Below, piece by piece: positions 29,453-64,000 of a stretch of DNA of 64,000 bases. The position numbers and the translations under genes are program-made. The DNA is taken from NCBI RefSeq assembly GCF_000189635.1, contig NW_002476431.1:62001-126000 (forward strand), in the 5' to 3' direction. Within the stretch, counting starts at the first letter, position 1, and the number at the start of each line of letters is the position of its first letter. Source of the DNA: Tetrahymena thermophila SB210 (lineage: Eukaryota; Ciliophora; Oligohymenophorea; Hymenostomatida; Tetrahymenidae). Under the pieces are notes generated by a model, which was given only the letters and a program-made list of their open reading frames with translations, was not told the origin of the DNA and ran no database searches.

Positions 29453-31207
29453 ATGGGAAACTAAAATAGTGGAAGCAACAGCACTATATCTTTCTCTGGT
29501 AGTTTAAGAAGTGGAGATTAATTAGAGAGCTAAACAAATTATATTCAAATGGAAGATCACACTACTGGCTAGTTAATGAACCAATAACCAGCTTAAAGAT
29601 AGAGTCATTTAAAATTTTTATCATGCATATAGAAACTGAATTGTATATCCAATATTAGAAATAAAAGATTACCTGATTGGTATAACCATTTAAAACACTA
29701 ACTTACTCAAAATAAAAAATATTCTTAACACAAATGGGCTATGGAATTGATAAAAGATGTCTATTCATTTGAATAATATAAAGAGGTGCAAGAACAATCT
29801 ATTTTTGAAGTAACAAAAGCCTCAGAATAATCTTACTTTGACTCTAGTGAATATTTAGCAAGAAGAAAAGATAGCTGGAGAGTAAATAGGGCTTCTTCAT
29901 ATTCAAATAGACAAGAAACTAATAGAGATAGTAATGTTACATCTTAAATGAATCCTCAAGAGCCAATTAATAGCAACGAACTCTTACAATTTTAATAGCA
30001 ATTCACTATAGAAAGAGAGAAAAAATTAGAAAGTATTATAGAGAATACAGAACTTCTTTAGGAATCTCTACAAGAGCACCGTAACTCAATCTATCAAATT
30101 AAAAGTTAAAGTATAAAGAGCCGTAGTGGCTCTATAAACTCAGAATATTCCAATAATGAAGAGTAATAGTATGTACAAGATGATATAAAGCAAATGAGTG
30201 CATTACTAACTGGAATGTCTGCAGCGATGGATGATTTTTAAAAGCAAATAATTATGGAGGAAGAAGAATATGATAAGATGTTTAAAAGTTTAAATCGCTA
30301 TAAAGAAATTACTCGAGTTTTACAACGTCATATGTAAAATACGTAAAAAAACCCTATCGCATATTTGCTTTCTAAGTACGTAGAACTTTTTGGGTTTACC
30401 TATGATTCTTTAAAGCTTAGCTAGCCATCAATGTACTTAAAAATAATTACTGAAGAAGTTGGTGATTTCATTTCATTCATAGTAGATCTATTAAGGGTAT
30501 ATTATAGACTAGATTATCTGTTAATGAGCTAATCTTTATCAGCAACAAATAATAATCTTAACAAACAAAATAAAGGATCACACTATGATGAAAATACATA
30601 TATGTTTTTTAGCATAGACAACCTTTAAAATTTCATTTGCAGTATTTTATTTTCATTTGACAATTTTTACAGAAAAATGAACAAACTCTTTTCAGAAGTT
30701 GATGATGAATTTTAGCAAAAGCTCAAAGAACAAATTGATAAGAAGTAAGGTATTTCATTATAAGAACTAGGAATAAAAAAGGAATTTTAACTCAGTGAAT
30801 TGACTCTAGCTTAGTTTTAAAAATCAAGAGAAGGCAACATTATTAATAATAGCAATAAGTATATAGATTAACCATTTTTTAAAGCAATTGAACACATAAA
30901 AAAGACTTAAATAACAAAATCTCCACTTTAGAAATTAAAAATTCTATTAAAAATATATGAAATTATTGAGTAAGACATCAAAGAGTTTTATGAAATTAAT
31001 GGAATAAAGTAAGCTTCGTCTTGCGATGCAGATAACTTTTTAGGAATAATTTAATATATTATTATCAAAGCAAAAGCATATAATATTTATAGTGATATAA
31101 AAATGATAGAACATTTTGTTAAAAACAGCTCTTCAAAGTCTGCATCTAGCTACAAATTAATTACATTACAAGCTTGCGTTTATCACATATAGCAATCTTA
31201 AATGTGA
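29453..31207 (+). CDS. VPS9-domain protein (Rab5-family GEF-like)
   Basis: Intronless ORF of 584 residues. It starts MGNQNSGS, a good N-myristoylation signal (Gly2, Ser6), and residues 1-250 are polar with coiled-coil-like stretches. From about residue 295 a helical region leads into a VPS9 fold: NPIAYLLSKYVELFG, then YLKIITEEVGDFISFIVDLL, then SCDADNFLGIIQYIIIKA near residue 525, YNIYSDIKMIEHF, and YKLITLQACVYHI at the C-terminus. The Asp of DADNFL and the late Tyr correspond to the catalytic pair of Rabex-5 type VPS9 domains, which load GTP on endosomal Rab5-class GTPases. Membrane tethering by myristoylation would fit a role in endocytic or phagosomal traffic. No FYVE, RIN or ubiquitin-binding module is visible. 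A CAAA microsatellite follows the stop. Confidence 0.88.
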
Positions 31208-36578: not shown

Positions 36579-37718
36579 TCACTATGGTTGTTATAACTAT
36601 TATTATATTTATAATTATGAAATAGTGTTAACTATCTCGCCTTTCTCATATATTGCTTGAATAACTAAACCTAATTTTTTATTTGTTTCTTAACCTGGCC
36701 CATTTCTTTAATTATTTTCAAAGAACCCTTCAAAAACCCAGTCATCGTTAAATTTTTCTTCTCCTACCCCATTCTTTTAATCTTCCTTCCATTCTCCGCT
36801 ATAAATGTAGCCATCTCGATTTATTAACTTACCACTACCATCTTTTTAATTATTTTTAAAAATCCCTAAATATACTGTACCATCCTAATAAATATAGAGC
36901 CCTTTTCCGTTTCTTAAACCATTGCTTAAATAACCTTTAAAATAATGGCCTTAAGAAGGAATTTCAATTGTTCTACCATGCCTTTATCCTTCTATGTTAA
37001 ATTAAGATACAGTATAAAAGTCTCTATCGTTTACCAAATAAAGCCTTGAGTCATTATTATTTTCTTTATTTAGATCATCAAAAATATTTTCATTTTTGTA
37101 TTTCTAATAAGCTTCTAATGCTTCTTTAGTAAGATTATGAATTACCTAGTTTTCTATTTCAAATCTTTAAAGTTCTTTATCAAATTCATAATCATTTATT
37201 TTTTTCATTATTGTTTCAAGTTATTTTTATATAGAGGAATATAGAGTTTAACCCATGCTTTAGCAAATATCTAATAAATAATTCCCATTTTACTTGTATA
37301 TTAATTTGTATAACTCAAGCAATTATTCAGAGAGTTTCTAATCTCTTTCAGAAATATTTAATGAGAAGCAACGCTCAAAACGCTATGCAAATGTATCTGC
37401 TTTTTAATTAATAAAATTCTTTACTTTGTTTTAAAACAAAGATACAATGCTCTTGCTGAGTTGTTCAAAGTTTTATATAATTTAATTTTTAAAACTTGGG
37501 AGACCTTGCTTCAAAATAGAAACGACATCTTCAGAGTCAATGAACTAATGATTAGAATGCTCCCTGCTAGATAAGCATTAAAAACATGCAAATCTATCAT
37601 TTTAATGGCAATCTTGTTGGATACAAAATGCGGTAACCTTTCTTTTATGATACTAACAAATTAAGTTGCTTAATTTCTAATCCTCAAAATCAACTTAGCT
37701 TAAACTTAAATCTATCAT
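36579..37718 (-). CDS. MORN-repeat protein with N-terminal B-box-like zinc motif
   Basis: Intronless ORF of 379 residues, ATG 37718, TGA 36579. Residues 20-62 carry a Cys/His series in B-box order: CQYHKRKVTAFC, then DCHQNDRFACFQC, then REHSNH, suggesting a zinc-binding module as in TRIM-type proteins. Residues 75-240 are helical and probably coiled-coil. From about 255 there are four MORN repeats (YFKGYLSNGLRNGKG, YLGIFKNNQKDGSG, YSGEWKEDQKNGVG, FEGFFENNQRNGPG), each with the G-x-x-x-NGxG pattern. MORN repeats commonly contact membranes or form scaffolds in protist cortex and basal bodies. The tail is Gln-rich. B-box followed by coiled coil and MORN is a recurrent ciliate architecture; the specific role is unknown. 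Confidence 0.88.
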
Positions 37719-38217
37719 TTTACTAACTTAAATATTAAATATATATTTGAATCTAAACAGAATAATTGAAGCAATTTATTAATTTTTTAATAAGAAAGAG
37801 AAGTATTTAAATCAAAGATTTTTATTGAAAATTTGTTCATCTTTATTTAATATTCCAAAAAATTGAATATATATTATATATTGTATTAAAAAAATATCAA
37901 TATTTTAAATAATTTGTCTGCCACAATTATTCCTTTGAAATTGTGTACATATTGCTTAATAATTATTTAACAAAGAAATCAAATACACAAATTTTTAATT
38001 ACATTATTTATATTCAGTTTTTAGATTAATTTAATTAATCTTTTAATATCTTAGATTTATGATTCAGATTCGAATATCTTTAAAAGGAAAAACAAAAAAA
38101 GTAAAAAGAGGAAAAAGTTAACAAACAAACAATTAATTAATTAATTATTTTTCATACAAATAATTAAGAAGCGGATGATGTTATAAATCTTTGGAAAGTA
38201 AACACTCTCAAAAACAA
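37719..38217. other. intergenic spacer
   Basis: About 500 nt of A+T-rich spacer with AATT-type runs upstream of the MORN gene; nothing recognised. Confidence 0.5.
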
Positions 38218-39513: not shown

Positions 39514-42500
39514 TCAATAATCAATTAGTTCCGGGTAGGATTTAATCATTAGGCGATTTTTAAAAGAGAGGAAAATTCTTTTCCCTATTTCTTAATATAA
39601 TTCAAGTTTTAGCATATGCTATAAGTAGGGGATTTAGTGCTCAACTGTTGAAAAAGTCAGATCAGTTATTAGATTTTTTCCATTTATCGTATTGTATATT
39701 TACACATAAAATTTTTTATAGAAAAATATTGCTATAATTTACAAAGGTCTAACAGTGAATACGCCTCTATATAAAGTTTTCATGTAAAATTGCTTGTTTT
39801 CGCTATCCAAGAGCTCATTTATATTCATGTTATTATTCATTTTGATTTTCTTGCGAATTTTTTTATCAACTGCGAATTAAGCATTAGTTTTAACTACTTT
39901 ATCTATTTCTGTTTTACTATTAATGGCCAGCTATTTGAATAATTCTGCATTTTATATGCTATTATTAAAATTATCTAGGTTTTAATTGCTAAAGTTATTT
40001 ACTATTTATTACTTTTACACCAAATCTATTCTGCTTTCATTTAAGTTTTGTTAATAAGCAATTATTTGTTGTTCCTTGATGACCTTTGACTAGCCTGAAG
40101 AAAATTGGTTTAATTTTAAATATGCGTTCGTTATATTTTAAGCCAATTGATGTTATACCGGTGGTAACGCAATAGGTTCATTTACTTCATAGTTATCCTC
40201 AACAAGACCTGTCTCAAATATCTCATTTTAGTGCTAATAGAATTTCATTACATGCATCTGCTTCTCTTAAATACTTGTCCTTATACGATCAAGTAGTAAA
40301 TAAGAAACTTAGATTAAATCAGAGTGATTGAAACTACGCTCAGAAAAATTTTAGAAGGCCTCTTCTTCGCTTTATGTATTCATATTGTTGGGTGATGAAA
40401 AACTACTATCAAATTAGTTCTAAATACTTTAATTGTTATATGTTTATGCAAATTCCCCTCTGAATGCTTAGTTTTTGTTTTCTTGCTAGTTGAGTCCTAC
40501 GAGATTTAATAAGTTATTATGGTGCTACAATTTTGGGGTATTTTAGAATTTTGAAGTATTCTCTTTATAATAAGAATATAAAATTTATTTCAACAGAATC
40601 TTTTCATTAATAGAGTTTATTTTTTAGAAAAAATTAATACGGACATACATATCCAATTTTTCCTCCTCATTCTCATACACTTATATTTATGGCGAGCTAA
40701 ATATGTCTGACTTTAGTTTTTAATCTTTAAAGCGAATTAAAACTTCAAATAACCCACTCTTATTTCCAGAAAAATTTAAAACACTTTTTATCAAGTATTC
40801 ACGCATAACTCCAGAATAGTTGTCCATAGTGAGAAGCATTTCTCCATTATTATCGATGGAAATGTCGACACTTTTAACAATCTCCTCCCAAATCTATTTA
40901 TATAAATGTAGTTTTGATAGTTTTTATCATAGTAATATTAAAATATTTTATTTGTTTGTTATTTCATTCAAAATAGTTGAAGTAAAGTAAATATTTTATC
41001 TTTTATAAGAAGTAAATTGGAGTAAAAAAGAAAAAAATAGTATATTTTACATTCAATTCTATAAAATTATGCCCTGTGATAATATTTTTTTGATTAGATT
41101 GTATCAACTAAAGGAATACACTAGGGTCAACATAAAATGACAAGGCATTCTATTTTTATTCTACAGACGACTCCAATTATTCTTCTATAGGAATTTATGG
41201 ACTTTAAATTTTAATTGGATTTAGAAAATTCTATGAACCTATATGCTTATTAGATGGCAAAAGTTAAGAATTCACTGTATTCTATTTAATCTATTTGTTT
41301 TAATTTAAATTTTGATTCTATTTGCTAGGGTCGAGTTTTATTAATTTTTTATTAAATGAAAAATAGTCCTTCGATTTATTTAGATCTTAGACGTTACTTT
41401 TAGCTATTTTTTCTTTGAAAATATGATTCATATATTCGCCTGACAAGTTAGCTAAGTTAGAAGAATAAAACGTGTTTGTAAATCTCCTGCAATTAAAGGG
41501 GAAATATATTTGCAAATAATAGTAATCGAGCTAGCTATAATATCCTATTGTTATTATTGCATATGTATTTAGTATTCTTTTAACTCCTTAAAATAAAACT
41601 CTTTCCCCTTATTAAATAATATCAAGGAAGGATTTTTTAGTGATTTCTTTAGGGATTAGGTGGTAAGATGGCTAATAAATAATTAAAAATAAAATTTTAA
41701 GTTTTCAAGTTTAAAAATAATTAGATCAAAATTTAAAAAATAATAATAGAAAGCAATACCTTTATTTGGAGTCTGTTGATCAAACAAAATTGATGTCTAT
41801 CGACTTGTTAGGGATTTATTTTAGTAAGGGGTAGTGAAAAATTTTTGTAGATTTGAGATTTTGAATAAACAAGGCATTTTGAAATTTTTTAAATAATTTT
41901 GAATAGAATGAGCTCATCAAAACTGTTTTCGAAAGAAAATGAGCGTTCAAACAAATTTAAAATATCAGAGAGCTCAAAAATCAACTTGAATTATTTATTT
42001 CTTTAACCAATAAGAGGAGATATATCAATTCTCAAATAAACTAATTTTTCAAGGTTAAGATGGATCTTTGTACGAAACACAGTTAAAATCATAAAAACTT
42101 TATATTTACTCTATCTTGAGTTAATGTTTATACATGCAAAATCCTTTATTGTTTTCTTTTCAAAATATTTTTGAATAATATCATTTTGCTAAAATTGCCA
42201 TTCATCATTTATATCATAACATAGTATTGCATATTTTATTTAATAGATGAAGTTTCTTTCTTAAGCAATTTTTTCATTAATCATTTGCTATTCATTATCA
42301 TTTTATCTTTTTTGTACACTCATGTCATCTCTATCCTTCTTCTTAATGTTTTCAAGTAGTAGCATGCTAATATTTTGTAGCTTTTGGTTGTTTCTTACAA
42401 AAACTTTATGCCTTATCCTTTGATTCTATTTAGTTTTTAATCGATCATTATTGAAAAAAATTTTAAAGACATAAAAATTGAAACATGAAACTGCTAAATG

Positions 42501-45500
42501 TACAGCTATAAACAGTGAATTTATGTAAAGAAACAAGTCCTTAAAAGTATTTTATAAATAAATAAACTGAACAAAAAGTAGTCAAATATTTTTGCATTGA
42601 AATAACTGGTTTTAATCTTTTATTCGTTTTCTATTAATAGATTAAAAACAAAAAGTAATAATTTTGATTTAAAATAAAAGTGTGCTAAATTATTCTTTTT
42701 GCAAAATTTTTAATTTTCTATTTTGTTTTGTTAAATAGAACAATTTAAGAAAATTTATTAAATTGAAAATTAAAAATAAATAAATAGATAAATAAAGGAA
42801 AATAACTAACAAACTAACTAGCTTATTTTTTGAATACAGTAAACAATAAAAATTATAATTACCTCAACTGAAAAGACTGGAAGTAAATTTGTTTTTTAGC
42901 CATTCATCTGAGTTCTTTTTTAAAGAATATAATTAAATATTATTTTCTTAAGGTTTTCAATAGATGTCAATCCTTAGCTTATATGAGGTTATACTAATTT
43001 TCTTTTTATTTAGACATCTTACTTTTTAAGCAGAGTTATTGTTTATGCGTCAAGCCACTTTAAATTTAACATCCTCTCTAATATGTTTAGGTCAGTAATT
43101 TCTAAAGAGCTAAGAGGATTCCTACTCAATGGTTTGTAGATTAAGAGTTTATGATAACTTTTTGTTTCAGTTTCCTCATATTTTAGAAGGACTGAAAGCT
43201 CATTTTTGTTTAACAAGCTGAATGTTTTGTAATAATCTTCTTCTCTTGCTGGAGTTTCATAATTGTTTAATTTCACTAACCCTTATTGTGATAACAATTT
43301 GATGTCTAAATTACTTTTAAATTCAGTTACTACTGTATCGTTTGCCAAAGTGGGAAGTTTATAATTGAATTATTGTGATTGTTTCTCAATATTTCCTGAA
43401 ATTGATTAGTAAGCTGTAGTAGTTTATTTTTCTGATTAAATTGTATTAACGCCTAATAAACCCAATTCTAGTGCACTAAGGTTTTTATTTTTCAATTTAT
43501 AATCATATTTAGTTCCATCAATAATTTAATTTAGTTCTTGTTAAGACTAATTTTATAAAATCAATTGCTGTTAGTAATAACTGATCACTTTTTCTTGTTC
43601 ATTTTAGTAATCTTGCTAAACTTCATCAGAAAATTAAAGTTTCTTTTTCTTATTTTGAATGCCTTATTCTTAAGAGCTTTTTTAGGTACCAACATTATTT
43701 TAAACATTCTATTCTATTTAAAGTTGAATAGGATTATTTTAATTTGAGTTATCTTATTGATAATCGTTATCTTTATTTTTATTAATGATAATGCTATCAT
43801 TGTTCTTATCTTCATCATTAATATCATTAGTTAGTTATTCATCCTCATTTAGAGGTTTATTTTATATCTAACTATCATTTATATTATGCTTTGTTTATAT
43901 TTTTTCTGTTGAATACTCCCAATTTATAATAAATTAGCAGTCTTTTACTTATAAATATTTCTCAAGACCTTTCTTTATAGAGTCTTTCTGTTTAGCTGTA
44001 AATCCTTTAGCATAGAGAAACTTAAAAAAGCTAAAACTAGTATAAGGCAGTATTAATTTTTCAATTACTTATTCAAAAGTTAGGATGATTTCGCTATCCC
44101 AACCATTTTTGTAGATCATCTTGTTGTTGTTTTTAAGATAAATAATTAGCATTAAATTAAATAATAAAATAAAAAGAAAAAAAATATAAAAATGTAAATT
44201 ATTTACGGAATCTACTTTCAGTATGAAATATGAATGAGCTAAAGCTTGTTAGTAATAAATATACTGCTCCAACTATGGCTCAAACGTGTAAAAAAGCTGT
44301 ACGAAGAAAAATAATTTATCTCTTTTAATCACTGTTTTTAGAAGAAGATCATTATTTATAAATGGATTCAAAGTAAATGTGGTATATTAGTAAGTATCTG
44401 GAAGACCTACGAATGGGTCTCCACATATAGCATTGTTTATTATTTTATTTTAAATAAATTCTTCATTTTCTTCGGTTTTTTAGATAATTTCCTCAGATTT
44501 ATCTTCAGCAACATCTTTATTTGTTTATTTTTAAGAGAATAAAAGATTTAAAAATGGGTGATAATAATAACAACAACAAAAAATAGATATCAAAAACCAA
44601 GATGAAATATATTTTTATTATAATAGCAAAGAAATTTATACTAAACAAAGTATGATTTTCAAAGATGTTGGCTAAAATAATTTTTGGTATTTAAAAATAC
44701 AATAAAAGGTCATATTAATATAAAAATTAATTGTTTAAGCTAAACAGCTAAAAGCTAACTAAATAAGTATATTTAAATATTGGAAATAATGTTTTTTTCA
44801 AGTACTTATTTACGAAAAGTAGTTTGATTGTTTTTAGTTTGAATTTTATTTAATTTCTTAAAAAATAATTAAGGAAAAGATAATTACCATATTCTTTCAC
44901 AATTATTTCTGGTTTTTCTTATTTTTAATTTATGATAGGTTAGTCATTAAACACAAACTTATAGGACGACACCTAAACTGCCTCTTCATTATTATTAGTA
45001 GGGAAATATTCAACACTTTCACTAATATTTTGGATAATAAGTAATTATTACATGTTAAAGATTTAATCTTTAAGATTAAATAATATAAATTAAAAAAAAA
45101 AATTTTGAATTATGAAATCATCAATTTAAACATTTTTTAATTCAAAGGGATTAAATAATATTAAACAAAATTATTTTAATTTGATAAAAATCCAAGTTTT
45201 GTAAATTAACTTTAAATATTAACAAATATTTTTGGCCTAAAGCATTTAAAAATTTTTTTATTTTTAAATATGAAATTCTTAAAATTGAAAAGAAATCAAC
45301 ATAAGTTATTCGACTTTAGTAGCTGGCTAATCTGGGGATGAGTACTTATTTTTCAATATAAAAGCAATTTTTAATTTTAAAAAATTTGATTGATGGTTTT
45401 TAGTTATTTTTTGTTTTTTACTATAAAATTGTAAGCAAATAAAAATTAATTAAATTTTTAAATAATTCACCTTTATTGTTAACTCATTATGGGTGTCTTT

Positions 45501-48500
45501 TAAGAATCATCATCTATAATATCGAATTTCATATTTTGTTTGGCAAACTAGCTACTTTTCTTGTTTTAGGGAATCAAAGCTTAAGATGGGCTTTGAATAG
45601 AGTCATTTAATTCTTCATTATTTACTGGAGCATATCGACTAAATTTACTTTTAGAACTCTTATTAGATAGCATAGATGGCATTCTTTAAAGGGTATTTTG
45701 ACCTACTAAGTTAGTTGGGCTGGTTGCAGATGAATTATAGCTACTGTTTGCAAATGAATTATTTTAAGAACTATTTCCTATGAATGACCTAGGGGATTCA
45801 GAATATGATTAAGAATTATCGTTTAAATTTGATGAATTCTATTACTAAGATTATAAACTATCCCTAATTTGTCTTTTTAAATGCTCTATTCTCAAATTAT
45901 TCTACTTATTAAATGAATTTTGATGAATCATAAGTGAATGAATATTGACTGCTTGTGGAGTATTATTGTTAGTATTAGGAACTGATTAAGTCGTTATTTC
46001 GTATTTTTTTTTATATTCTTCTGCTTATAATTAAGCATCTTTCTATAATAACAAATTTTGCTCTTCATTTGAAATATCTTTGCTTTATTTGGGGCTTACA
46101 CCAGCACCTTAGTCTTCAACAACACTACTAAATCCTTACATTAATATATTAGGAATGATTATCTTTGAATTTTTTTGATTTTATCTTGGGGAAGAGTATT
46201 CAGTTTCAAATTTCCCATTTTGCACGATCTGATTTTAATTGTTGTTTTAAATTAAGCTTTCTTAAGTTCCCTCTCCATCTGGTATATTACCAGATAGAGA
46301 ATTTACTGGTAGTGTTGGACTTAGTTGATTCTAATTTTTACCTAAATCAAAGTTTACTTAAGTTTCAAGAGGTATGCTTGTTTCTGATTCCTTTTATACC
46401 TAATAAACTCTTTCCTTCATTTTGTATTTAAGATATTAGTATTTTTGGAATCTAGCTGAACTTTGAGAAGTATTTACCTATATCTTCCCTGATCCTTATG
46501 ATTAAATACTATGAATTGAGGGATTAATGATATTAAGTTTTTTTTAAGAAAACCTCCCACTGAATGCAGGAGTATTTATGCTAGGTTATGATTATTAAAG
46601 TTAAAGCTAAAAAGGTTATTATGGGCCATAAAATGGTATTTTGCTCTAATTTTGTGAATTACTATTTGATGAATTTGTTGGATTTTATTGATATGAGTTC
46701 ATATTATTTAAAGATAGACGCTTTTGTAATTAAAAATCACTCAGTTCATTTGTATCTGTGTTTTTTTAAAAGATTGGACTTTCATTTGATCCTTCTCTAT
46801 TTAATGGAATGCGCTAATAGCCATTCTATTGATAATCAATTTCAATTTATAAATCTACATTAGAGTTCTATTTTTTAACATTATGCTCATTAAAGGTATG
46901 CCCTTTTTCTCTAGTTACTCCATCTTATTTTTAATTAATAGAATCTGAAATCTATAAGTTAACTTTTTTCTTTTTATAAGTTTGAAGCTATTAGATTTAT
47001 CCTACTATATACTAATCAATATTGTAGTATGAAATGTAATTCTTAAGCTCTCTTCTTTTATTCTATTTTTAATATTAAATATTTTATTGAAGTTTTAAAA
47101 TAAAAATATATTAGATAGAGATTAAAAGGTTTTTGAATTAACTAAAATAAAAAGTTTTATTAATTATTTTATTAAAATTAAAATAATTTAAAAAGTAAAA
47201 TAATTATGATTCATATTAAAAATTATAAACTTATTCCAATTTATTGTAATATTTTAAATTTTATGGTGATTTTCTTTTTTTGAATTTAGTTAGAACTAAT
47301 AAAATCATTTAAAACAGTCAATAAATATCTTTAAAATCTATTTAAAATATTACTTAGATTAATTTTTTTTTTTTAATATTACTTTAATTTTTTTAAATTG
47401 GTGTTAAATGTTGGCTTAAAAAAAATACATTTTTTTCGATTAAATATAAGATAGAATTTTGATAAATTTTATTAAAATATACCTAATGACTCCTAAGACT
47501 TTTAAGGTTATTTTGTCTAATATTTAGCTGTGGGTTAATGATATCATTCAAATCTGTTGGCAATTTAAGAACATCTCCGTGGACCTTTTTCATAACTTAT
47601 GCAATTTTGTTTATAATAAAGTTCAATTTTAAACCAAAAACTCTGATTTAATCAAAATTTTAATCATTTTATATAGTCTCTGATTGTGATTACTCTTTTT
47701 GAATAAGATTTTAAAAATCTAAAAATGAATTTCCTCCTCTGAGCACAAACTGCACTTAAATATTTTACATAGACAGACCAATATTGTAAAATTCTTCCAC
47801 TGCATCTAAATCCCTTTCACGAATCCACCTATCAAGTAAGAGTATAGCTAGCTCGTATTTCGTTTCTATTTTACTTTTGTCATTTGGCCATAAGTGATCA
47901 ATAAAATTTAAAGGTTAGTTTTTTAAGTAGAAGATTAAAGGATTGCTAATAATATGCTAATCGGTTATGATGCATTCTAAGAATATACACAACTTGATAT
48001 CATATCTTATTTTGTCACTTGTAAATGGCAGACCTCCTTAATTTTATTTGTAATCTTTAGAATTACCCTTCAATACTTATTCGATATCTTCTGCATCTTC
48101 TTAAGCAGTTACATTTTCAAGCTCAATAGTAATATTTGTTACATTCCACTAGCAAAGAGAGTATTAATTGTAGGATTTATAAAAATATAAAGGAGCAAAT
48201 AATAACTCCTATATTCTATTTTGTACAAATAAATATTTAGATTATTTTATTGAAGGAAAGTAAATAGTTTTAACTGGAAACTAATCTCTATTTTAAATAC
48301 CAATTTATTATTTCAAATTTTATGAAACATTCATTCCTTTTGTATTTCCAATAAGTGCATTTGCAATATTTTAGCTATTATTTATCATTGTAGATTTATC
48401 TTGTGCTCCATAATTTGACTAAATATTATTTTGAATTTGTTGGTTGAATGATTATTATAGTGATGATATGCCCTGGTCAGTTACATGCAAATGTTGACCA

Positions 48501-51500
48501 TAGCTTTTGTTAACATCAAGCTAACCTTATTAGCTACTAAGTAAACGAGAAATATCAGGAGATTACTGATTTAATTTCCCTAAAGTACCACCAACAATTG
48601 ATACTTTTAAATTCATGCTATTGCCTAGCCTTTTATCTGATTTTTTTAGATCATCTCCATTAAAGTTTTCATCACCACCTTTAAGCTCATCAATCTAATT
48701 ATTCTATAAATCATCTAGCATTTGATTAGGAACATTTCTTTATTAATCATCTGAGTCTTCTAATTTTGAATCTTCATCTTCATCTTCCTAGGAGCTCTAA
48801 GTTTCATTTATTTTGTTTTAGTCCTTATTTATTCTATCCTATAGTGAATGAAGTTAAAATTAATAAATACTCTTCATTAAATAATTTAAATTTTACATTA
48901 TTCATGTTCTCAAATTAATCAAATTTCTATTTAAGAAAAGGAGTTGTAAATTGGCTGTTAAAACGTTTCTCTTCTTCATTATTTTGTTGATTTGTTTAAA
49001 TATCAATTTGTATTTATTCGTAGTTTGCTGTTGACTGTCTCTTAAACACACTTTCATTAATATTTGTGCTTAGCTATTTTAAATTTTAGAGTTAATTTAA
49101 AAATATAATTTAAAACTACTTTAATAATTTTTAAATTTATTTTAAAGATGGAAATTTATTTACTCTTCTGATTGTTGCTGGCTTTGTGATTTATTTATCT
49201 TCTATTTTTGAATTATTTACAAATCCTGATTTATTGGCTAATATCTAATCTCCTTGCTTACTTTATTTAAGTAACCTAGAGTTTTCCTAATTAGAAATCT
49301 AGTTCTATTAAATAAAGAGAGGCTGAGCTGAAATCTAAGAAGCATCATGAAATATTTCTGTATTTTTTCTTTTGAGAATAATTGTGTTATTTATATTGGT
49401 AATATTTCTGTTTGTCTCCATTTAAATTTCTAATTTATATTTTTAAAGTTAATTAAAATAATTTTAGATTATTCAATCTTTGTTTTTACCCTTATCCTTA
49501 GCTTTAGGAGAGCCACCCTAAGGAATTTTTACTTATTAACTGCTATGAGCGATATATTGATTTACATTTACGGAATTGTATGATGGATTGTTGTTGTTAG
49601 ATTAATTTTAATTAATCTAAATAAATGCACTACTTCCTACTTGCTATTACAATTACTAATTTGGCTATTAAGAATACAATTAAGACACGTCTTTAATTCT
49701 GCTATTTTATTTTTCAATTGTATTTAATCTTTTTTAACTTCCTTCATTTTTTCTATCCTACTATAATTTTTATTAAAAAAATATTTATTTAATTAAAAAA
49801 AAACATTCAAATATTTACTTATAGTTGTCTAACAGATTATACTTTTTTATTGTTATCATCAAATTGTGTTAAGCTCTTGTATTATTATTGACTAGCTTAC
49901 ATTTGTTATGGAGCTTTTATTGAATTTCTGTAAGATTATTTTCCTCCAGATTAGCCATTTTTTGTTTACAGTTGATTATTTGAGTTATTGTAGTACTCCT
50001 CTTCTGCTATTTAACTTGGTTGATTGTTCTTCTGTATGTTATATTGTTGCGCTTATATTTACTATTGAGATGACATTTTTCTAGATGAGTTAATTTGTTT
50101 TTTAGTGTTTACTTGGCCTTGGTCAGTTTTTAAGCTAGGCCTGTTACATATAATATTCATAAATTGTTAATCTTGATCTTTCGTGAGCTTAAGAGTGATT
50201 TTTTATGAATTTGTGGAAGGTTTATTAGAAAGTGTCTTTAATTGATTAGATGTATCAAATAAATTGTTCAACTAAACTCTTAAATTACCCATAGTGTCAA
50301 TTATTTTTTCAACATTTTTAGCATTTTTTGTTGGTCTTTGGTTAATTATTAAAAATTTGTTACCTTCTAATGGTTTTTTAATTTACTCAACTGCCTTTTA
50401 AAGATTTTACTAATCCTGAGAGGATTATTCTAAAAATTGTAACTATTACTTTTCTTCATTTGTTACTTATTTCGAAATATCTTAAATTTCGTTTCCTTCA
50501 TAAATTACACCTTATTAATAGACCTATTATTAAGGTAGTTAATACTACTAATGCACTGATTAACTAGGATTATTATTATTAAATAGTCTATTTGTTGAAA
50601 AATAGATAATTGAAGATGAGGGTCTTGATGAACTAAAAGCTTTTCTATGAGAGGTAGAGATAGTTGTTGATTTATTTGAATGTGCAAAACTATTTTTATT
50701 ATTATTACCTTCATTTATCTAATCAACAAAATTCATAATACTCTCTAAAATATCATTTTGTGAATTAATTCTTGTCATAGGTTTTCTTATAGTCTTTGCA
50801 TTTTCTAATTTGCTTCTCGATGTATTAGATGGATCAATTAAGTTGTTTTGAAATGGGGGTTGTTAAATTGCAGTTTAATTGTATGCTTCTATTGATTGAA
50901 TTTATTTATTTTAAATATTAGTGTTTTGAGTAAGATTTTTAGCACTTGCTATTCTTTTTCCTGAGTATATTCCTTAATGCTAAGGATATTAGTGAAGTGA
51001 TAGCTTTTTAGAATTTGAAACTGGCATAAATTATTGTGATTAGTTATTTTTTTCATCTTTTGTTTATGATCCTACTCCTCCTCCTAACTATTTTTAATAC
51101 TCTAAACTAGATTAATATGTATTTTCTTCTTCATTTTTCTTGTAATAGTTATTGCCTTTTGATGATAGACTTTTTTGTTAATAAGAAAATACGGAGTGAG
51201 GAACTTGAGACTGTGTTTCCTCTTAATTAAATTTAAAATCTCCTTAAGAATTCTTTTTAGAAGCAACAGTAGTGTATGAAAGAAAATTCTTTTAAAGTTA
51301 ATCAGGATTGTTATTTTTTTAATAAATATCATCATTATTGTTATTGGAATAAAGATTTTTAGTGCTTTAAGAACTAATTTTAGTTAAAGTATTTGCAAAA
51401 GAAGGAGCTTTTCTATGAAATTTATTAGCGGTAGGTTACATATATTCTTAATTACTTAAATTTGTATTACTAAAGTAATTCTATTCATTTGCTAGCTATG

Positions 51501-54063
51501 AATTATTATCATAATTTTTTGCCCTAGAGCTGCTTGAGCCTCTCGCCTTTGCACTTTAAGGATGTTATCTGATTTTTTTTGTAGGTACTAAAAAAGGAAT
51601 ACTTTTTTCTTCAGGTGATAACTCAATTTATTTTCCTGCCACTGACTTTGGTAATTTAAAATATTCATCTGCATGGCTTTGTTAATTGGCATTAAAAGGT
51701 TGCTAATTCATTAAACTCGTAGAATTAGATCCAAGAATTTAGCTTTTATAGTTTTCAAGTTGTAGCTAAAGGTTTTTTTTGAATTTAAATTATCTACCTT
51801 CTTACTGTTAACCTTATTAATTAGAATTAGGTTATTTTTAAATTTAACTGTTTGATTGCTGAGCATAGTCAGTCAGAGAAGATCCAAAAGGGTGTGAAAT
51901 AGGAATTTTTTTCAAATACCTATTTTTGTTTAAGGATTTCACTGTGTGGTGATTTTATAGTTAGTTTAGGTATTCAGGATCTATATAGAATTATACTGAA
52001 GGACTCTAAATATCTGACATAGGAATACCTTTTTTAGACGCTAAATAATTCTTTTTGGCTGCTTTCATTTATTTTTTGTGATTTTCATTGTTAGCATATT
52101 CTTATTAAAACTAGCTGAATTCAATAATTTCTGCTTCATCAATCTTTTCAAATTCTAATTTACCAATTAATTTATCATATTTTCTCTTGAACTTATATTA
52201 TAACATCATCCTGTCTTATCCTTCTTTAAAAAAATTTACAAGCTTTTCATATGCATTTTTGTAACATTATTTCGCCTTTTCTATTTCCTATGTTTTTAGT
52301 CTATATTTACCCAGTTTAGTCCATGTGTAAGAGAGAATAATAGCCAAATATACTTAATCTTCTTGAGATTCAGGTGAATCATTTGCTTTAAGAGGTAAAA
52401 GTATAGACTCTAGTCTTGCAATTACAAAATGTGCACATTCTAATAACTCTTAAGACATTTCTTTTATCTCTTACTCCTCATATTAGTCTTCCCCATGTTT
52501 CAATAACTCAGCTAATACCTCAACTTTTTTTGCATAAAATTTGCATAGAGTTCCTTTAAGATCCTACTTTGATTATTCAATATACTCATCAGTAAGTTTG
52601 GATTCTATATCATTCAAAATCTACATTGCATTTTCCAGTTTGTTTTCATTTATCTTTTCTTCTTCATCCTTTTCTTCTTCTTCATCCATTTCCTTTTGCT
52701 TTTACCGTAAAAGTAATTATTGATAGCTTTCCTTATTTTAATCAATATCTTATTTTTAAATATCATCGTCTTTGATATTTTTTAAAGAAGTTTATCCAAC
52801 ATTTCTTGAGAGGGCAACTGTAGATTAAATAGGAGAAGGAGCGAAAAATACTTATTTTTCTTTATTTGGTGACGCATTAGCTGATGATTAAATTGGAGGA
52901 GAAGCATTTAGTTTATCAAATTTTTCATGTTCCAGTTCTAATTCGTGCTCCTCCTTAATCTCTTTCATACCAGCAATTTCATTTCCAGCAAAATCATATT
53001 TCTTATTGCCACTATCAAAGGCCTAACTGCTAGATTGAATTGACTTCTTTTTCTATTAATTTTTTTTCTTTTTTTTAATAATTTTCATTTATTGTTTGTA
53101 AACATCACACAAATTCAAAGCTATTTCTATTCTAATATCATGATATCTTAAGTCTTATTCAAATATAGTATCAAAATCATCTTATTCATTATTATCATCT
53201 TCTTCATCATAAGAGCTTTATTACTAAATTTAACTGTTTTCACTTTCATTATTTTTTTTTTCCTCAGTATTATTTTAATTGTGTTCCTCATCCATCAATT
53301 ATTTCCTTAATTTCCTCTAGTTTTTTTTTCTTAAATGCTTTTCGTTAGGTTCGGTTAAATATTTGGCTCTTAGTAAGTACTTTTCTGCTAAATAATATCT
53401 TTTTTCTTTAATTAGACTTATTGAAGCATCTAAAAGTATTCCGCACATAATCATTACACATTTGTATGCCTCAAAATTAAAAATTTAGTTATTTTAGTGA
53501 AGAATCTCCAAACAACATTTTTCTTAATAAAAGAAGTTCTTATTTTACTGATAGTTTAATGTATTTCTTATACCGTTTAAAGAATGCTTATCAGCCTACA
53601 ATAAATATTCAGTTACTTTTTCGTATTTATCTAAATATTATTCTGTTTAGTTGATCTTAGCTAAACTGAAATTTAAAATGTTTTCATAATCTTAATTTTT
53701 ATCACCTTAATCGTAATATATCATTCCATTTTAATATTAATTTAGCTATCCATCTTACTCATCTAACATGCCTGGCTGATAGTCCATTAAATGCTAATTT
53801 ATATATTATTAATTCGCATCCAAATTTTGAATCTCTTAAGAATCTGCTTCCTGGTTAAAATCATTTTGATTTGGTTGACTGTTATCTTCATTATATCCAC
53901 TATTTTAATTTAATTCATTATTATGAAAATTATATGTATCATCAATATTTTAGTTATTATTATTTGGCGTAAATAGAAAATTATCTCCATTGTTATTTTA
54001 GTTTATATTTTAAGACTCCTTTTTGAAAGGGTTTTAAATTTTGAGCTAATTATCCAAATTCAT
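39514..54063 (-). CDS. giant low-complexity protein, paralogue 1 of a tandem pair
   Basis: Fourteen exons: 49819-54063, 49490-49760, 49164-49429, 48897-49073, 47483-48838, 45471-47062, 45301-45344, 44888-45067, 44207-44514, 42863-44119, 41760-42425, 41585-41646, 41051-41486, 39514-40893; about 4,080 residues, every junction in phase. Exon 1 alone is 4,245 nt. Residues 110-230 and 600-700 look like helical TPR-type repeats (CCLEILHQNNQIFNFEAYK, YTWTKLGKYRLKTQEIEKAK). Long Asn/Gln/Ser tracts separate ordered blocks, including LLDRWIRERDLDAVEEFY, CGDPFVGLPDTY, REEDYYKTFSLL, VYLRIDISPLIG, WEEIVKSVDISI, and the C-terminal YRGVFTV...RIFLSFKN. I do not recognise the family. The least certain joins are 49430-49489 (otherwise a TGA splits the gene), 47063-47482 and 42426-42862. 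The downstream neighbour is a paralogue. Confidence 0.7.
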
Positions 54064-54750
54064 TTTGAATATATCCTGTAAGGCTTTTATATCAATATGG
54101 TTTTTAATGAATCCTATTATTTTTGATCTAATAATAAACAAAAGGAGTAATTGAAAAAAAACTTTAATCAATCAATATTAAAATTTAAGACTCTATTTTA
54201 AATTTATAATTATTTTGAAACATATAAATCTTTGTATACTAAGTTATAGAAAAAAAATATTATTTTAGATTTATAAAAATAATATTTTTACAATTAACTT
54301 TTTTAGAATCATTTTATATTAAGGTAAAATTAAAAATACCCTACAATATCAAAACTAAATCTATTTTAACTTAAAATTATTTTCTAACTATGGGGTTCTA
54401 ACAAAAATAAATATTGATTTTATAAATTTTTAGTTTGATCGAATCATATGAATAATTGTGGTATTGCATTTTAATTATATTTTAAAATCATAAAAATACT
54501 AAAATTAGTTTAACGATATTATTCAAATAACTTAATTAATTAATTTTAATAATATTGAAGCAAATATAAATATTTTTAGAATACAAACATTTTGTGTTAT
54601 ATTGAAACAAAAAATTAAAAAATAAAATTCGTAATTATTATATATACAAATTTATTGAAGTTGAGTGAATTATTTACAAATAGGATAAAGTTTGCAAAGT
54701 AGAATTAAACAAATAAATTATTTTTTCTATTAAATATTTATTTTTAGATA
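54064..54750. other. intergenic spacer between the tandem paralogues
   Basis: 687 nt of A+T-rich DNA between the stop of paralogue 2 and the start of paralogue 1, both minus strand. No gene seen. Confidence 0.55.
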
Positions 54751-57700
54751 TCAATCTAAATCTATCTTTAAATGATTATAAGTTTGTAGTAATAGTTAGT
54801 TCTTAAAGCATAAGAAAATTCTATCTCCTAAATCTTTGTATAGTTTAGATTTTAAAAAATAGGTACAATGAGGAATATATTTCTCAACTTCCTTTAATTT
54901 CTTTTTAAGAATAATGTCTTTTGAGTTGATATTATTCCAGCAATAAATGTAAAATGTTTCTTTATTTGGTTTATAGAAAATTGTCACCATCTATCTTGGA
55001 GAAACTGTTAGAATTCTTCTATAAATGATAAAATATTTTATTTACTAAGGATCTATTTCTTTACTTCTTTTAAAGTTATTGTTTGCTTTCAAAATAGCCT
55101 TGCAATAGACATCTTTTTCTAATGACTTGCTCTTGTAAAGTGATAAATAATCTTAAATTTTTCCTTTAAGTTATTTTTTTTCTCTTTCTTTAACAAATTT
55201 ATTATAATTTGCTTTTATTTTGTTTGCATAAAAGATTGCCATATCTTACATATTGTTGAGCTTAAAGCTGTAAAGAAATGGATTATCTTCTGCAGCAATC
55301 TATTCTTATTTCATTTTTTGAATAGCTGCAAAAGAAGTTCTTTTTTTTTCAAAGTTTTTCTTTTAGCTGTTTAGCATAATTTATACTGATCCCCCTTTTT
55401 TATCTAAGATACTAGTTCTTTATTTTAATGTTTACTTTGAGGTTTGTTATTAATTATTGGAAATTTTAGATAAGCTAGGTATTTTTGGATTACTATCTCC
55501 ACTACCTATTTGAGTTTGACTTAAATTAATTTTTTATTAACTTTAATTATTAAGTTATTCTCTATTGATATTTGTATTTTTCAATTTGCTTCTTGACTAT
55601 TTATGGAAACTATAAAGCATATGTCTACCACAAACTTTTTAATTATGGACTATGTCTTACCCAAAAAAGTGAAGTCTAATATACAGGTTTTGAGTAAATG
55701 AGTCATTGAGCATAAGAGGTGTAGATTTCGAAAAAATGCTATTCAAAGTTTTCCTTTTGCTTTATTTATTTTAAAAATAATAATTTTTACATCTAAAAAA
55801 GAAAATTTAAAAATAGAAATACTATTCCTCGATGTAGAATTCATAAAGAATATTGTCTCTTTCGTTCATATTTATGACAATACTGCTTAGAGTTTCTCTT
55901 AAAATTCCGTTAAAAGTGTTAATCTTTAAAACAAGTTTATGCTATTGATTTTCTTCAATTACAATTGCAGAAATCAAATGTTCCCATACTTTTTTTTCTA
56001 AATATGATGTCTATTCAGTTAGATTCTTTTAGAAATACTTGACAAAATTAATTTTTTAAGTAGAATATTTGCTGACATGTGCTTAATTCATATAAAATCT
56101 GAGTTGTGAGGAGTTGATTGATTATTCATTTAAATCTTTAATAGACTCTATTGATTACAAGCTTTAATTTGTAATATTCTTGTCATAGATATGAAAATCT
56201 GTCCTACTGATTTAAAACTAGCTCAATTTATTTTTAGAATGAAGATGACTTTATGACTTTATAACTTGAGAAGAGTTTTTGAACCAATTCTCTGATTTGT
56301 AGGTTATTTTTTTATCGTTTTTTCTTGTATTTTCATTCATTTCTTGAATTAATAGCTTTTTATGCATTTAATCAAAGGCTTTGCAGAATTAAAAGTAGTT
56401 CTAAATTGTTTTTAAAATGGTAAATTAATAAAATTTATTAGAAGTAAGTAAAAGAATTTATCAATGAAGTATGAGCATTTATTTATTTACCTTATATTAT
56501 TTTAGTTCATTTATGTTGTTCTCAAATTTAACAATAACTAAAGGTATAACTGATTCCATGAAATCTGAATCAAACTTTAGCATGTCCTATTCCATTAAAA
56601 AGCAGATAAATCTTCTGCATGTCTTAGGGATGTATATGATTAGCTAAAACCAATCTATGTTTAAGTATATATAACGTTTCACTGTTATAACTAAAAACTC
56701 TCCTTTAATTTTCTTTATTCCTTAGTAAATAATTTTGTGAGTTCTCAAAACAGGTGTCAACATAGATTTTTTACTCAAAAAGCTAATCTCTTACTTTGTA
56801 TTCATAGAGTTGAAATCAAATTGGTTCACTAGATCATAATCACTAGATTCAGACTTTATTTTAAAAAGATTTTATCAAAATTAAAAAAAATACTTTAATA
56901 AAACTTACTATCTAATTAAATTATTTCCAAAATGGTATTTTCAAAGCATTATAATTTTAAGTATGAGAGTAATTGACTTTTGTAGCAAACTCCATAATCA
57001 TTTTAGTGATTGATTCTGGGTCAAGACAATTTTTTTGGTTGTATTTGGTCTTTGAGAAAATAGTAATGATATCATTATAATCAAGGATCATTTTAATCAA
57101 CTTAGTACGCTTAGCAGCAGGTGCAATATCAATTCTAATGAAAATATAATTATCTGATGTGTAGAGCAATTTACTCTAGTAGACAGTAGTTTATATTAGA
57201 GCTCGACCAAGATTTGTGATGTTTTAAAACTGCTGGACACGTGTACTGTAAAAGTATGTATTAAAAAAGTAATTTTATTCAGCTGTTTCTGCATTTTAAT
57301 CGTTAGAAATCAACGCTAATTTAACTTTGTAAAGAAAATTAGTGAATTATTCTTTATTTTCATCTAAATAATTTCTAGTTGTCATTAATTTATAAAGGGC
57401 CTCGTCGTTTGGATTCATTTTCCTATTTAGCTTATAATTAAAAAATTCTTCATTTGTTTCAATAAAACTCCTGAACTCTAATTTTCTTCCAATAATTTTT
57501 TTATTCCATTTTAAATTCATTTTTATGAGAATTTCTCTCAGTCTTTAGTTTCTTAGAAGGTAGTTATCTACTTAAAGCAAGTTTTGAAGCTTCTCTAAAT
57601 TTTTCTTTTCCTTAACTCTAACTGTTTCTACTCGATAGCTGATGAAATAAAAAATATTTTTAGCTAAGGATATATAAATTATAAAAATCAAATTACGAAA

Positions 57701-60700
57701 GAGGGTCATAAAAGCTTATGTTTGCAATAAGATCACCTTGTATGTCAAGTAAATAATCCACCTTAATTTTCTTTCTGAACCCATCTTTATTTGAAAAGTA
57801 AATATCTATGATTCTAAAGTCTTCTTCTCTTCTAAATGATTCTCGTTGCTCAGAACTATTTCTTTCTTCATAATGTTTTTTCTAAGTTTAATTTTAACTA
57901 TAATTATTCTTATCTTTATTGACTATTCGCAGAATAGAATTATAGTAAGTCATAGCGTAAGGATGATTGATTCTCCCATCTTTGTAATTTCTTTCTCTTT
58001 CTTCATTATAAATTTCGAATACTTTATTCCTTGGATCACCTCTAATCTATTTCTTAAATTAGTAGGCTACTTTTTATGTACTGATACTGGGTTTTCTACT
58101 CTTTTTACTCTATAATCCTACTTCTTACGAAACACTTGAAGTTAGTTTATTTACCGGACTTTTCATATTTTATGATTTTTCTAAAAGGCTTTCTCTTCTA
58201 AAATTTGTATCAAAACTAGATATTCTAATTTAACTTCTGGAATTGTCATAATTTTCTTAATCTTATTATTACTATTATTGTAAAGCCTACTAATTTTGTT
58301 ATTACTATAATTAAATCTATTATTATTAAATTAAAAGCTGCTGTTTCTCCTCAAATTACTATTTTGTCAATACTTGTTAATACTAAAAAAAGCAAATAAA
58401 TTAAATTTTTTTAAATAAAAATTTTAGAATTTACTTCAAGTTACACTGGATGTTCTCTGGAAAGGATTTAGAATAAATGAAAAATCTTTTCGGATAATAT
58501 GATGTCTTAAATTATCTCAATAAAATACTAGTTCCTCTTTTACAGCTCATTTTCATCAAAGTCTATGGAATTGTTTGGAGATAGTTTTGCATTTGAAATT
58601 TGAGCTTTTAATTCATTTACTTCATTGTTTTTCTTTTTCTCTTATTCGTTTACTTCGTTTTGTTTTTCTTAATTTTCATCTTAATTTTGTTCTTCATTTT
58701 CATTTTTGGTAATTTTTTTTTTCAATTATGTTTGGTAAAATGTCAATTTGGTGTTAAATTGTTAAATAGATGAAATATTTATATTAGTGGGAGAATTTAG
58801 AGTAAGCTTTTTAAACTAAGCAGCTACTTGCTGTTAAAATAAAATTTTTTATTCTAGCTCTTTTTAAACTAAAAGCTAATAGCTTTATTCATCTACAAAA
58901 TACAACTTCTCATTTAAAATTCTATATTTTTTTATTTTTCTTGGAATCAATTTTAGTTATTTTTCTACAGTTATCATTTAGCTATTTAAGCGCTCTAATA
59001 AAATCTTTTTTTACAATTTATTAAAGCCAATGTTATAAATAAATTTATTTAGCTTAAATAAATGTTTGCACACTGCTTTTTAAAACTTTATATTAAAATC
59101 TGTATATGGATTTAATCCTTCATATTGTAAAGTCTCCATATTTAATCCATAGTTTTCTTCATTCAAGATACTATCCTCTTAAAATTAATTTTAATTTTCA
59201 TTATTTGAACTGAAATCGTCATTTTTATCTTAAGATATATTTTTAAGTAGTCTTTAAATGGTATCATAGTACTCTTAAATTTGAAGGTCGTTGTCTTCTG
59301 CAAAAAGTGTTTCTATGAATTCATAAAAGGAAAATTAGGAAGAATATCTCTAGGTTGGATGATAAGCAAAATTAGTTTGAATTTAAACTGCTTCTACATG
59401 AATTTAAACATCATTCTTTAATTTTTCTACATCCCACTCATCTTTTGCATTAACAGTATAACTAATCTAAATTGTTACAAAAAAGTTATCTTTTTCACTT
59501 TGATCTTAAATAATTTTAGTATTTTAGTTTTGGAATTTGTTAAAATTAAAAGAATTTTCTTCATTGTCTTCAATATGTTGAATTAATTTTTAAGTGCTTA
59601 TCTAACCATTTTCAACTATCCCTTCTTTCCTACGATTGTACTCTTCCATACTCATGCTATTTAATCTCATGATACCACATAAAAGAACATCCCTATATTT
59701 ATTTAAAAAGTTAAATAGAAAAAATAATTTTTGGGTTATTGCTTAATTAATTTAATTAAATTATTACTTTTGTCTAAAAGCATTTATAAAAATATTAGGA
59801 ATAGCAATTTAGGCAATATTTTTATTTTCTTCAAAATACTCAATATATTTTTGAGGGTTACAAAATCTAATTTTGAGTTATCTCTACAATATGTTCCTAA
59901 ATTAGTCTACTTTTTATTTAATTAATTCCTCAATTCCATTTGTTTATTGAGAAATGGGAATCTTTGTAGCTACTTAAGATTATACTTATTCGTTCTATGT
60001 TGAATTTGTATTTTCACTTGTCTAAATTAAAAATTAAAAAAATTGAAATTTTTAAATAATCAATTAACTAATCTAAATAAAAGAAAAATTTACATGTTAT
60101 AAATTTTTTGAGTCTTCTCTTATTCTAGAAGCCTACTCGCCTTAGAAAGGTAAAATATAACCATCCTGTGAGAAATTTTTCAGGTCATCTTCCTCCAATT
60201 CTTTTTAATCATCTGATCTGTTTTTTGACATATCTTTTTGGGCTCTTTCTAAAGAAGTTTCTTAATTTTATTATTATTATTATTACAGTTATTGAATCTA
60301 AGCCATCATTTTACTTTAATTTATTTCCGCCGTACCAGCCTCTTCTGGATAAATACTACAAAAATAATAGTTAATATTTTATTTTTATAGCAAAAGCTAA
60401 ATTAATTTCTTTACTCAGATTAAATCATTTTTTCATAGTCATTTAGATTTTATTTAGAAAACAATCTTTGATCTATACTACCTTAATTTTTTTAGTCTAA
60501 ACCTGCCATTTAATTTGTATACATAATAGTAAGAGACTAAGTTAAATCTTAAGAATTCTTAGAATTCAAATTTCTTCTTCTTGTAACTTTTTATTTAATC
60601 ATAGGAATACTACTTAACTCTTCTTAGTCATTAAACTATTTTTCTTCATCTAGAGAATCAACTATACTACTTTTTGAACTAATACTTAAGTTCATATCTT

Positions 60701-63700
60701 ACTTAAAGAGCTCAATAATATCAGACTTTTTAACAAAATTATTTTTGTTTATATTAAATAAAAAGTTAATCAATCTTACAGGTTTTGTATGAGTTAGCCT
60801 TCTATATTTATCTTCAAAACTTGTTATTTCTTAGCTGGATGATAGCTTATCTATATATTCGCTGTCTTTATTGTAATTTGAAGCAAATTCATTGAGTTGA
60901 GATTTTTATCTACCTGAAGGTGTATCATCATTCTCTTTATAATTATTTATCTATAAACTGACATTTCTTTATAGCTCTACACTATCATCAAGAATTTCTT
61001 CCTGTGGTTTTGCTTCACTTTAACTTTTATTATCTGAGACATCTTTATCATTTTACTCATTTCTTTTTATCATTGAAAAAGTAGATTTTTTATTAAGATT
61101 TCTTTGGAAAAATCTCTCAATTGTAGGATTTTATGCCTAATTCATTTATAACATTTAATTTGTTTATTAATCTTCTTCCTGTGATGACTTATATTCAATT
61201 CTACTGTTTTCTTTCTCTGCTTTCTTAAATGATTCTTATCTACTCATATTTTATCTTTCATGAGAGTTAGAATTACTTCCTGAAGGAGGAGCTTAAATGT
61301 TTCTAATAATACTATTTAAAATTCTCAATTTAGAATTATAATGATGATTATTAAGATTTTACCTTTATTATGAATCTATAGAAATATTTAAATTATCAGA
61401 TGGTGAATGTATATCTTCTTGGTATTCTAATTCTCCAGAGTATTTTGCAGGATATATTCTTTTGATTATAAATTTTAATAACTTTATAAAATATTTTTTA
61501 ATTAATAAAATTTGATAATAATTACTCAGGTAATTGAGCAATAGAATTATTTCTTGATTGTTAATACCTTTACACTTTTTCAATAGAATTATTTGAATGT
61601 GGGGATTATTATTGTTATGACGATAATCTTTGAGCGTTTATATGAGGATTTAGACTAAGAACCATATTATAACTATTAAGCATGGTATTAAAGTTAGTAT
61701 TTGAAGGTTAAAATCCAAGCTGGCCTCTAGTGGATTGCTAAGGCTTTAGGGCATTTAAATTTGGGATACTACTTTTTTATCTACTTCTCTACTAACTAAA
61801 CATTTCGAGCTGTTTCTGCATATGAGATGTCTACAGTTGCAATCCTTTATTTACTATATCTTCATTCATAAATAAATTCCTTTCAAAAACAGCTAAATTA
61901 TCGCTCAAATATTTTTTGTACTCCTCAACATAATCATACATTCTTTAGTATTGCAACATTTTTGAGTATTCTTATAGATCTATAAGCTAATCAGCTGAAT
62001 TATTTGGTGAAGGTTTAGGTGAAAAATTTTATTTTATTTTTTTTTAGACTCCGAATCTTATAAATATTTAAGGAGACAGCGTTTCTAAATTGATTATTGT
62101 TTTCCTAACAATTTGTCTTCTTATTTTTAAAAACTCTTTCAGATAATAATAATTTTTTTAATAATCATTATTTTCCTCTTGATTTAACTCATTTTGCTAA
62201 TGTAAGTGGGTTTATTCTATTTAGGGAATGTAATTCAAAGTATTTCTAGATGACGAATTTTCTTATTGTGAAATAAACCTTAATTTATTACCTGTAGGAG
62301 TTTTTATTAATAAAAGAGACTAACTTATTAAAAAAGATAGTTTGAGCCCAATATTTATTAATTCACTATTTTCCTTTATAAAGTATAAAATTGAATTTCT
62401 ATTTTTTCATAATAAATTTTACTTGTTGCTAAAATTCACCTTAATATCTTCCAATTGTGTTGTCAAAGCTAATTATGATTTACTAATATCCTTCATCTAA
62501 GCTCTGATAGAATTATTTCCAATTTTTTTACAAATTGCTATTTTTAGGTAAGTTAAAGTAGTAATTCAATATAAAATCTGCTATTCCCCATCTCGTAACA
62601 ATATTTGTCTCAAATAAAAAGTTTTCTAAAAATTCAATTTCGTTGTTCTAAATGGTAAAAACAAGCTTTCCTGTATAATACATGCTCTCAATATCCATAG
62701 TTAAGGTAAGTTTGTATAATGATTCATTATTTTTTAAACTAAAATTTTACTAACTTGTAAATCCATTTTTATTGGATTCTATAACTTTAAATTTTATTTT
62801 GAATTTTTCTAACTTCCAAATACAAACCTCAGAGTTATTAAACCTTGAGTAAAATGCTAAATATCTATCTTTGCACTGTTTTACTTTTTGGAATAACGAA
62901 TTGATTTCTTAAATCCTTTTAGTTTCCCTGAATTTGAATTGCTTAAATAAAACTTAATAAAAAAAATTAATATTTTATAAGTAAATTATTTAATTAATTT
63001 CTCTTTTATTAAAAACATGGATGTAAATAAAAGATATTACAAAGTTCTTCCTTCTCTCTTGTTAGCTTTTCTTACTCATTGAGAGCTTTTTCATTTTATG
63101 GATCCAGTAGCAAGTTGTTATTTTGATTATCTTTGTTATTATTATTTTAATTTTCTTACTGTTATTTATCTTCCTATATCCCACCTTCACGATCACCTTC
63201 ATCGCTAAACAAATCATCATCATTCTCTATTTTTATTTTAAAATATTAATAAAATGATTTAAATAGTTAAGTTAATACATAAAGAAGGTTAATTTTAAGT
63301 CATATTCTTATTATCAGGTCCTACAAATTCTAATTTTTATAAAGAATTTTCTTTATCTTTTTGATTCCTCTCAGCTTCTTCAGCCATTAATCTCTCAAAT
63401 TTTTAGGAGATAACCTTCTCAAAATCAAAACCCTAAATGAAATTGTAAGTTCCATCATCATCGAAAATTTCAAATGAATTTTTGTGTTTTAAAGGAGGGC
63501 TCTACTACTTTTATTGATCTTCTGTATATTTTTATTCATTACTTGACGTTACTTGCTACTATTACTACTATTTAGAAAATTGTATTTAAATAGAAGGCTT
63601 TTTTTATCCCGTTAATGTATCAGGAGAATAGATAATTTATGAACTGGAAATTTATTCTGAAGTATTTTTTTAGTTGCTTCTGCTTTAAACTTATTGTAAT

Positions 63701-64000
63701 TTTGTTAAAGATGTCTAAGGGCGTTATCTTTATATTTAATTTTAAGGTATTATTTTTATTTGTGGGTTTTAAACATGTAAACTATTAACACGTATTTGTG
63801 GATGCTTTAAGGGATGCTTATTTGCTAATTTCTAGTTTTCATCTCCCTATTCATCAATAGTATAATAACTATTATTTGTATTAATTTAATCATTATTTGT
63901 ATTTATTTTTATTTAATATTATGATTTTTTTATTTAAAATCCTTTCTTTTATGTGCTCGAGTTCTGCTTACTTTCTTATGGTCTTACTAATAATTCATAT
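54751..64000 (-). CDS. giant low-complexity protein, paralogue 2 (5' end beyond window)
   Basis: Thirteen exons seen: 63279->64000, 63041-63226, 62423-62952, 61568-62373, 61363-61458, 60415-61311, 60094-60355, 58435-60021, 57697-58382, 56909-57638, 56491-56853, 55823-56400, 54751-55792; at least 2,800 residues, phases consistent. Ordered blocks in order include EIFDDDGTYNFIQGFDFEKV, VIVGLL-free helical segments around 62.6 kb (SMYYTGKLVFTIQNNEIEF), LLCGIMRLNSMSMEEYN, REEDFRIIDIYFSNKDGF, FIRIDIAPAAK, VWEHLISAIVIEE, FNGILRETL, and YRRILTV...RIFLCFKN at the C-terminus. Between them are Gln/Asn-rich linkers. The intron at 55793-55822 is only 30 nt. The blocks match paralogue 1 in sequence and order, so this is a gene duplication. 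Function unknown; no enzyme motif or membrane helix is convincing. Confidence 0.7.

Follow-up and report, generated by a model that had tools for sequence, protein, structure and literature searches.

Two giant genes, called here B and A, lie in tandem on the minus strand of the analysed stretch of Tetrahymena thermophila DNA (C117:62001-126000; all 64,000 nucleotides of it are referred to as the window), and they belong to a family that numbers at least 14 paralogous loci in this ciliate's genome. Six segments, labelled Ma, Mb, M5, M6, M7 and M8, were placed in the same order in all eight members for which a gene model was built, as judged from hand-chosen anchors. Relative to Pfam, the PDB and the literature searched, the family is unrecognised, as a first-pass annotation of the window had proposed. 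The word is limited in reach because UniProt and other ciliate genomes lay outside the comparison.

A tandem gene pair within a larger family

The sequence was translated with genetic code 6, and genes were modelled with a home-made splice-aware dynamic-programming finder trained on the long open frames of the region; the models are predictions, not transcripts, and some of their introns may be wrong. Gene B was placed at 39514..54063 on the minus strand, encoding 4,149 amino acids (aa) with nine predicted introns. Gene A, also on the minus strand, occupies 54751..64000 within the window and crosses its end; its first 2.6 kb lie outside, and the full model runs from a start at 66633 to 54751 in continued coordinates (L002), giving 3,713 aa and again nine predicted introns. 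A gap of 687 bases separates the start of B at 54063 from the end of A at 54751. These coordinates agree with the first-pass annotation, which had described two giant, tandem, paralogous minus-strand genes 687 nt apart, with B ending at 39514 and both proteins exceeding 2,800 residues. It had overlooked that gene A continues past the window end and that a long N-terminal region precedes the blocks in both proteins, and in speaking of a pair it had the relationship right but the scope too narrow.

The open segments of A, B and two further members, C and D, were compared between genes by BLASTP with a low-complexity filter. Of 33 between-gene rows, five were dropped as an artefact, the stretches taken for C and D having overlapped by about 200 bases. 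A and B shared four rows in the same order (E 1.4e-4, 3.2e-7, 6.5e-11 and 3.9e-13), which bears out the collinearity claimed earlier; a fifth row (E 0.004) paired non-matching segments. The comparison of B with C reached E 4e-21.

The five short block pairs on which the annotation had relied were examined in two MAFFT alignments, and three of them stood in register. RIFLSFKN/RIFLCFKN and YSGVMREYL/FNGILRETL fell in the same columns in both alignments, and VYLRIDIS/FIRIDIAP was offset by 0 and 4 columns. REEDYYKTF and REEDFRIID lay 37 columns apart in one alignment and 54 in the other, at a place where both proteins align poorly, and their register is undecided; by eye, each stands ahead of a similar '..PLS', at a REED-to-S distance of 41 and 45 residues. 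CGDPF and LLCGIM, separated by 588 columns in one alignment and 940 in the other, are not homologous. Predicted introns were also compared: a phase-0 intron fell at one alignment column common to B, C and D, a second position was common to B and D only, and in the printed portion of the alignment no other predicted introns coincided exactly.

A and B might be unrelated genes whose likeness reflects only the composition bias of AT-rich, Q/N-rich coding sequence. The linkers are indeed of low complexity, two of the five block pairs were out of register, and a control with reversed sequences yielded seven rows at E <=0.01, six of them within genes, down to E 2.7e-6 in gene D. Between genes, however, that control gave a single row (D/B, E 0.010), as against 3.9e-13 for A/B and 4e-21 for B/C with the filtered true sequences. 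Furthermore, members F and G were matched in the genome search at E 6e-22, and predicted intron positions are held in common among members. The results already obtained thus speak against a mere composition effect, and we regard it as scarcely credible.

When the C-terminal block of B was used as the query against the genome (101 Mb, 445 contigs), four loci were found: A, B and a same-strand tandem pair on C392, namely gene C (155285-141248) and gene D (141015-128816), which are 232 bases apart in the splice-aware models. Segment M6 of gene C then matched four more giant loci, E (C157:648k), F (C22), G (C158) and I (C441). With M6 of F and M7 of E as queries, six others were found: J (C122), K (C126), L (C157:577k), M (C278), N (C279, 202k) and O (C279, 211k), of which N and O, on the same strand, are probably a third tandem pair. 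Queries with O and K gave no additional locus in the genome. The count of 14 is a lower bound, as the search scores the best candidates only. Gene I (C441:14529), first matched at E 0.0057, was kept because the family segments are present in it and because it reached E 1.6e-11 in a later search. The M6 query of gene C also matched C112:200478 (E 0.0016) and C40:645876 (E 0.0096); both candidates were rejected, since no family segments were seen by eye in the surrounding translation. Weak matches also came up at C327:408775 (E 0.055) and C122:946359 (E 1.1).

The eight modelled members (A to G and I) measure 3,472 to 4,491 aa, and their genes span some 11 to 15 kb. For J to O the reading was limited to 3-4 kb per locus, short of full length; M6 was found in all six (two partial), M7 in all six and M8 in five (one partial), M8 not being found within the 3-4 kb read in O. 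A tree was built from 274 columns of M6, M7b and M8, with A to D lacking an M7b row and with L and O partial. It separated E to O from A to D with support of 98, and grouped E, F, G, I, J, L and M (support 99) and K, N and O (support 78); several finer branches were poorly supported.

Conserved segments and the C-terminal domain

All segments of both genes are read on the minus strand. In gene B, the C-terminal domain M8, predicted to consist of four strands plus helices, lies at 39517..39786. M7, which includes YSGVMREYL, lies at 40549..41080 and crosses a predicted intron (41050-40894) that recurs with the same position and phase in the C and D models. M6 (41342..41641; RVLFQGVKRI..IYFPFNCRRF) is well conserved across members. 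M5 lies at 41865..42149 (VYLRIDISPLIG). Mb (43952..44371) and Ma (47783..48007) are weakly conserved, and a hydrophobic stretch inside Mb, seen by eye, may be an unremoved intron. The N-terminal region (52084..53616) was judged by eye to be helical. The counterparts in gene A are M8 at 54754..55035, M7 at 55603..56019 (including FNGILRETL), M6 at 56374..56775 (KIIYQGIKKI..IYIPKTCRRF), M5 at 56969..57241 (FIRIDIAPAAK), Mb at 59245..59718 (including LLCGIM) and Ma at 62510..62722.

Across members, M6 follows a pattern like ..RVIxQGVKKI..EYxIITV..IQIYIPKTxR.., and the majority pattern of M7 across the ten members from E to O resembles NLREILNLFIAEGYYKxQTNYxxSKLxYSDL. M8 forms the C-terminus of the members; in G, the open frame extends beyond it. 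The order M6-M7-M8 was seen in all eight modelled members with the same hand-chosen anchors. The linkers between segments are long and poorly conserved, and Q and N together make up 21-24% of the whole proteins versus 12-18% of the segments. No signal peptide was seen by eye in the modelled members. Membrane-like stretches occurred in four of the eight models (A, B, D and G) at places that do not match, and no membrane-like segment common to the eight was found.

The C-terminus of E was modelled with AlphaFold2 from an alignment of 14 rows, E and 13 others, representing eight members. M8 of E was predicted as four strands and three helices with a pLDDT (predicted local distance difference test score) of 94-97; M7 of E reached only about 43-70, and M8 of gene B itself 54-67. 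Fold comparison gave weak leads only. At the sequence level, none of 30 open frames and exon pieces matched a Pfam family at the curated cut-off, comparison with PDB sequences gave no credible relative, and literature searches turned up no account of such a family, which does not show it to be unpublished.

Possible function of the family

The sequence comparisons show that these proteins form a family; as to its function, which is inferred, we consider that its members may be giant intracellular, probably cytoplasmic, multi-module scaffolds, and put the probability of this reading at roughly 45%. It is suggested because the modules are ordered on tethers, no enzyme domain was found, no membrane segment is shared, and the family is strongly divergent and multi-copy. 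As non-enzymatic scaffolds, the proteins would bind partners through the N-terminal region and through each of the folded modules, the linkers would serve as long tethers, and the paralogues might differ in the structure or life stage that they serve. For a ciliate, our guess would be a site in the cytoskeleton, the cortex or the cilia.

Several points weigh against this reading. Identity between members is low (14-32% over a 448-column alignment), four models (E, F, G and I) had to be trimmed by hand where the finder had entered neighbouring genes, and the regions flanking the two tandem pairs have only one match in common (E 8e-4). N-terminal homology is firm for A/C only (E 5.4e-7); that of B/C is weak (E 0.007 over 42 columns), and a profile of A and C gave no useful score with the other six modelled members, the best being E 0.067 for B as compared with 0.055 for a reversed F control. 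In C and D, the N-terminal exons resemble TPR proteins in their sub-threshold matches (TPR_12 at 11.5 bits in C, cut-off 30.1; TPR_2 at 17.8 bits in D, cut-off 27) but differ in having no match at the Pfam cut-off, and the N-terminal pieces of A and B had no TPR match at E <=1. Finally, the case for a scaffold function is drawn from architecture and from the lack of known domains.

Two more specific identities were weighed. In the XRCC4 superfamily, whose fold is that of SAS-6 and CCDC61, a strand-rich head precedes a coiled coil; M7 could be such a head, as perhaps could other modules, and the proteins would then be oligomerising basal-body or fibre components. No sequence relation of the family to the SAS-6/CCDC61/XRCC4 superfamily was found: the SAS-6_N profile (PF16531) gave 14 genome matches at E <=10, none within the family loci. 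Also, SAS-6 is not known to have the giant size, the linkers or the further modules seen here. We hold this identity to be unlikely. Alternatively, M8 might be a PUR/Whirly-like nucleic-acid-binding module, and the family might regulate RNA or DNA during a life cycle with two nuclei. PUR repeat proteins are built of an intertwined pair of four-strand-plus-helix repeats, and M8 resembles PUR/Whirly domains in having four strands and then a helix; PUR/Whirly was the top row for M8 in Foldseek. M8 differs in having three helices after the strands, and the score was not significant. A nucleic-acid role appears highly improbable.

Among 15 pairs of segment profiles compared, Mb aligned with M6 across 79 columns (P 0.005), as did M6 with M8 across 63 (P 0.03); these are weak hints that modules may be repeated internally. 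A bolder picture, which we think quite improbable, is that of a ciliate-lineage family of at least 14 giants in which repeated small strand-and-helix modules of the XRCC4/SAS-6-head type on disordered tethers would polymerise or bridge into cortical or basal-body fibres.

With 14 loci, eight of them modelled as genes of roughly 11 to 15 kb, with conserved folded modules and with no domain name found, the family is a large outlay of protein that a model ciliate makes for reasons not yet explained. M8 offers a compact, testable handle on the family, which could account for part of the ciliate cytoskeleton if localisation fits.

Neighbouring genes and other observations

Upstream of gene A, an open frame with a SAM domain is followed by one with a protein kinase domain (L002:6048-9358, minus strand); the two are probably one signalling kinase gene. 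Within the window, open frames with ankyrin repeats and MORN repeats were found at 13068-14372 and 36582-37811, both on the minus strand, and a VPS9 domain lies at the end of an open frame at 29177-31204 on the plus strand (E 7.7e-19). On the minus strand, 23647-24915 matched Peptidase_S11 (D-alanyl-D-alanine carboxypeptidase) at E 3.2e-34; the enzyme is of bacterial type, and horizontal transfer into the ciliate is a possible origin. A RIB43A fragment from the genome is identical at 72 of 72 residues to the Tetrahymena thermophila chain 6u0u_A of the PDB, which places the genome in that species or a very close one. Elsewhere in the genome, ten of the 14 SAS-6_N matches exceeded the profile cut-off, at several loci (L038-L041; C184 and C138 of G000), and the genome accordingly appears to contain two or more genes of the SAS-6 type.
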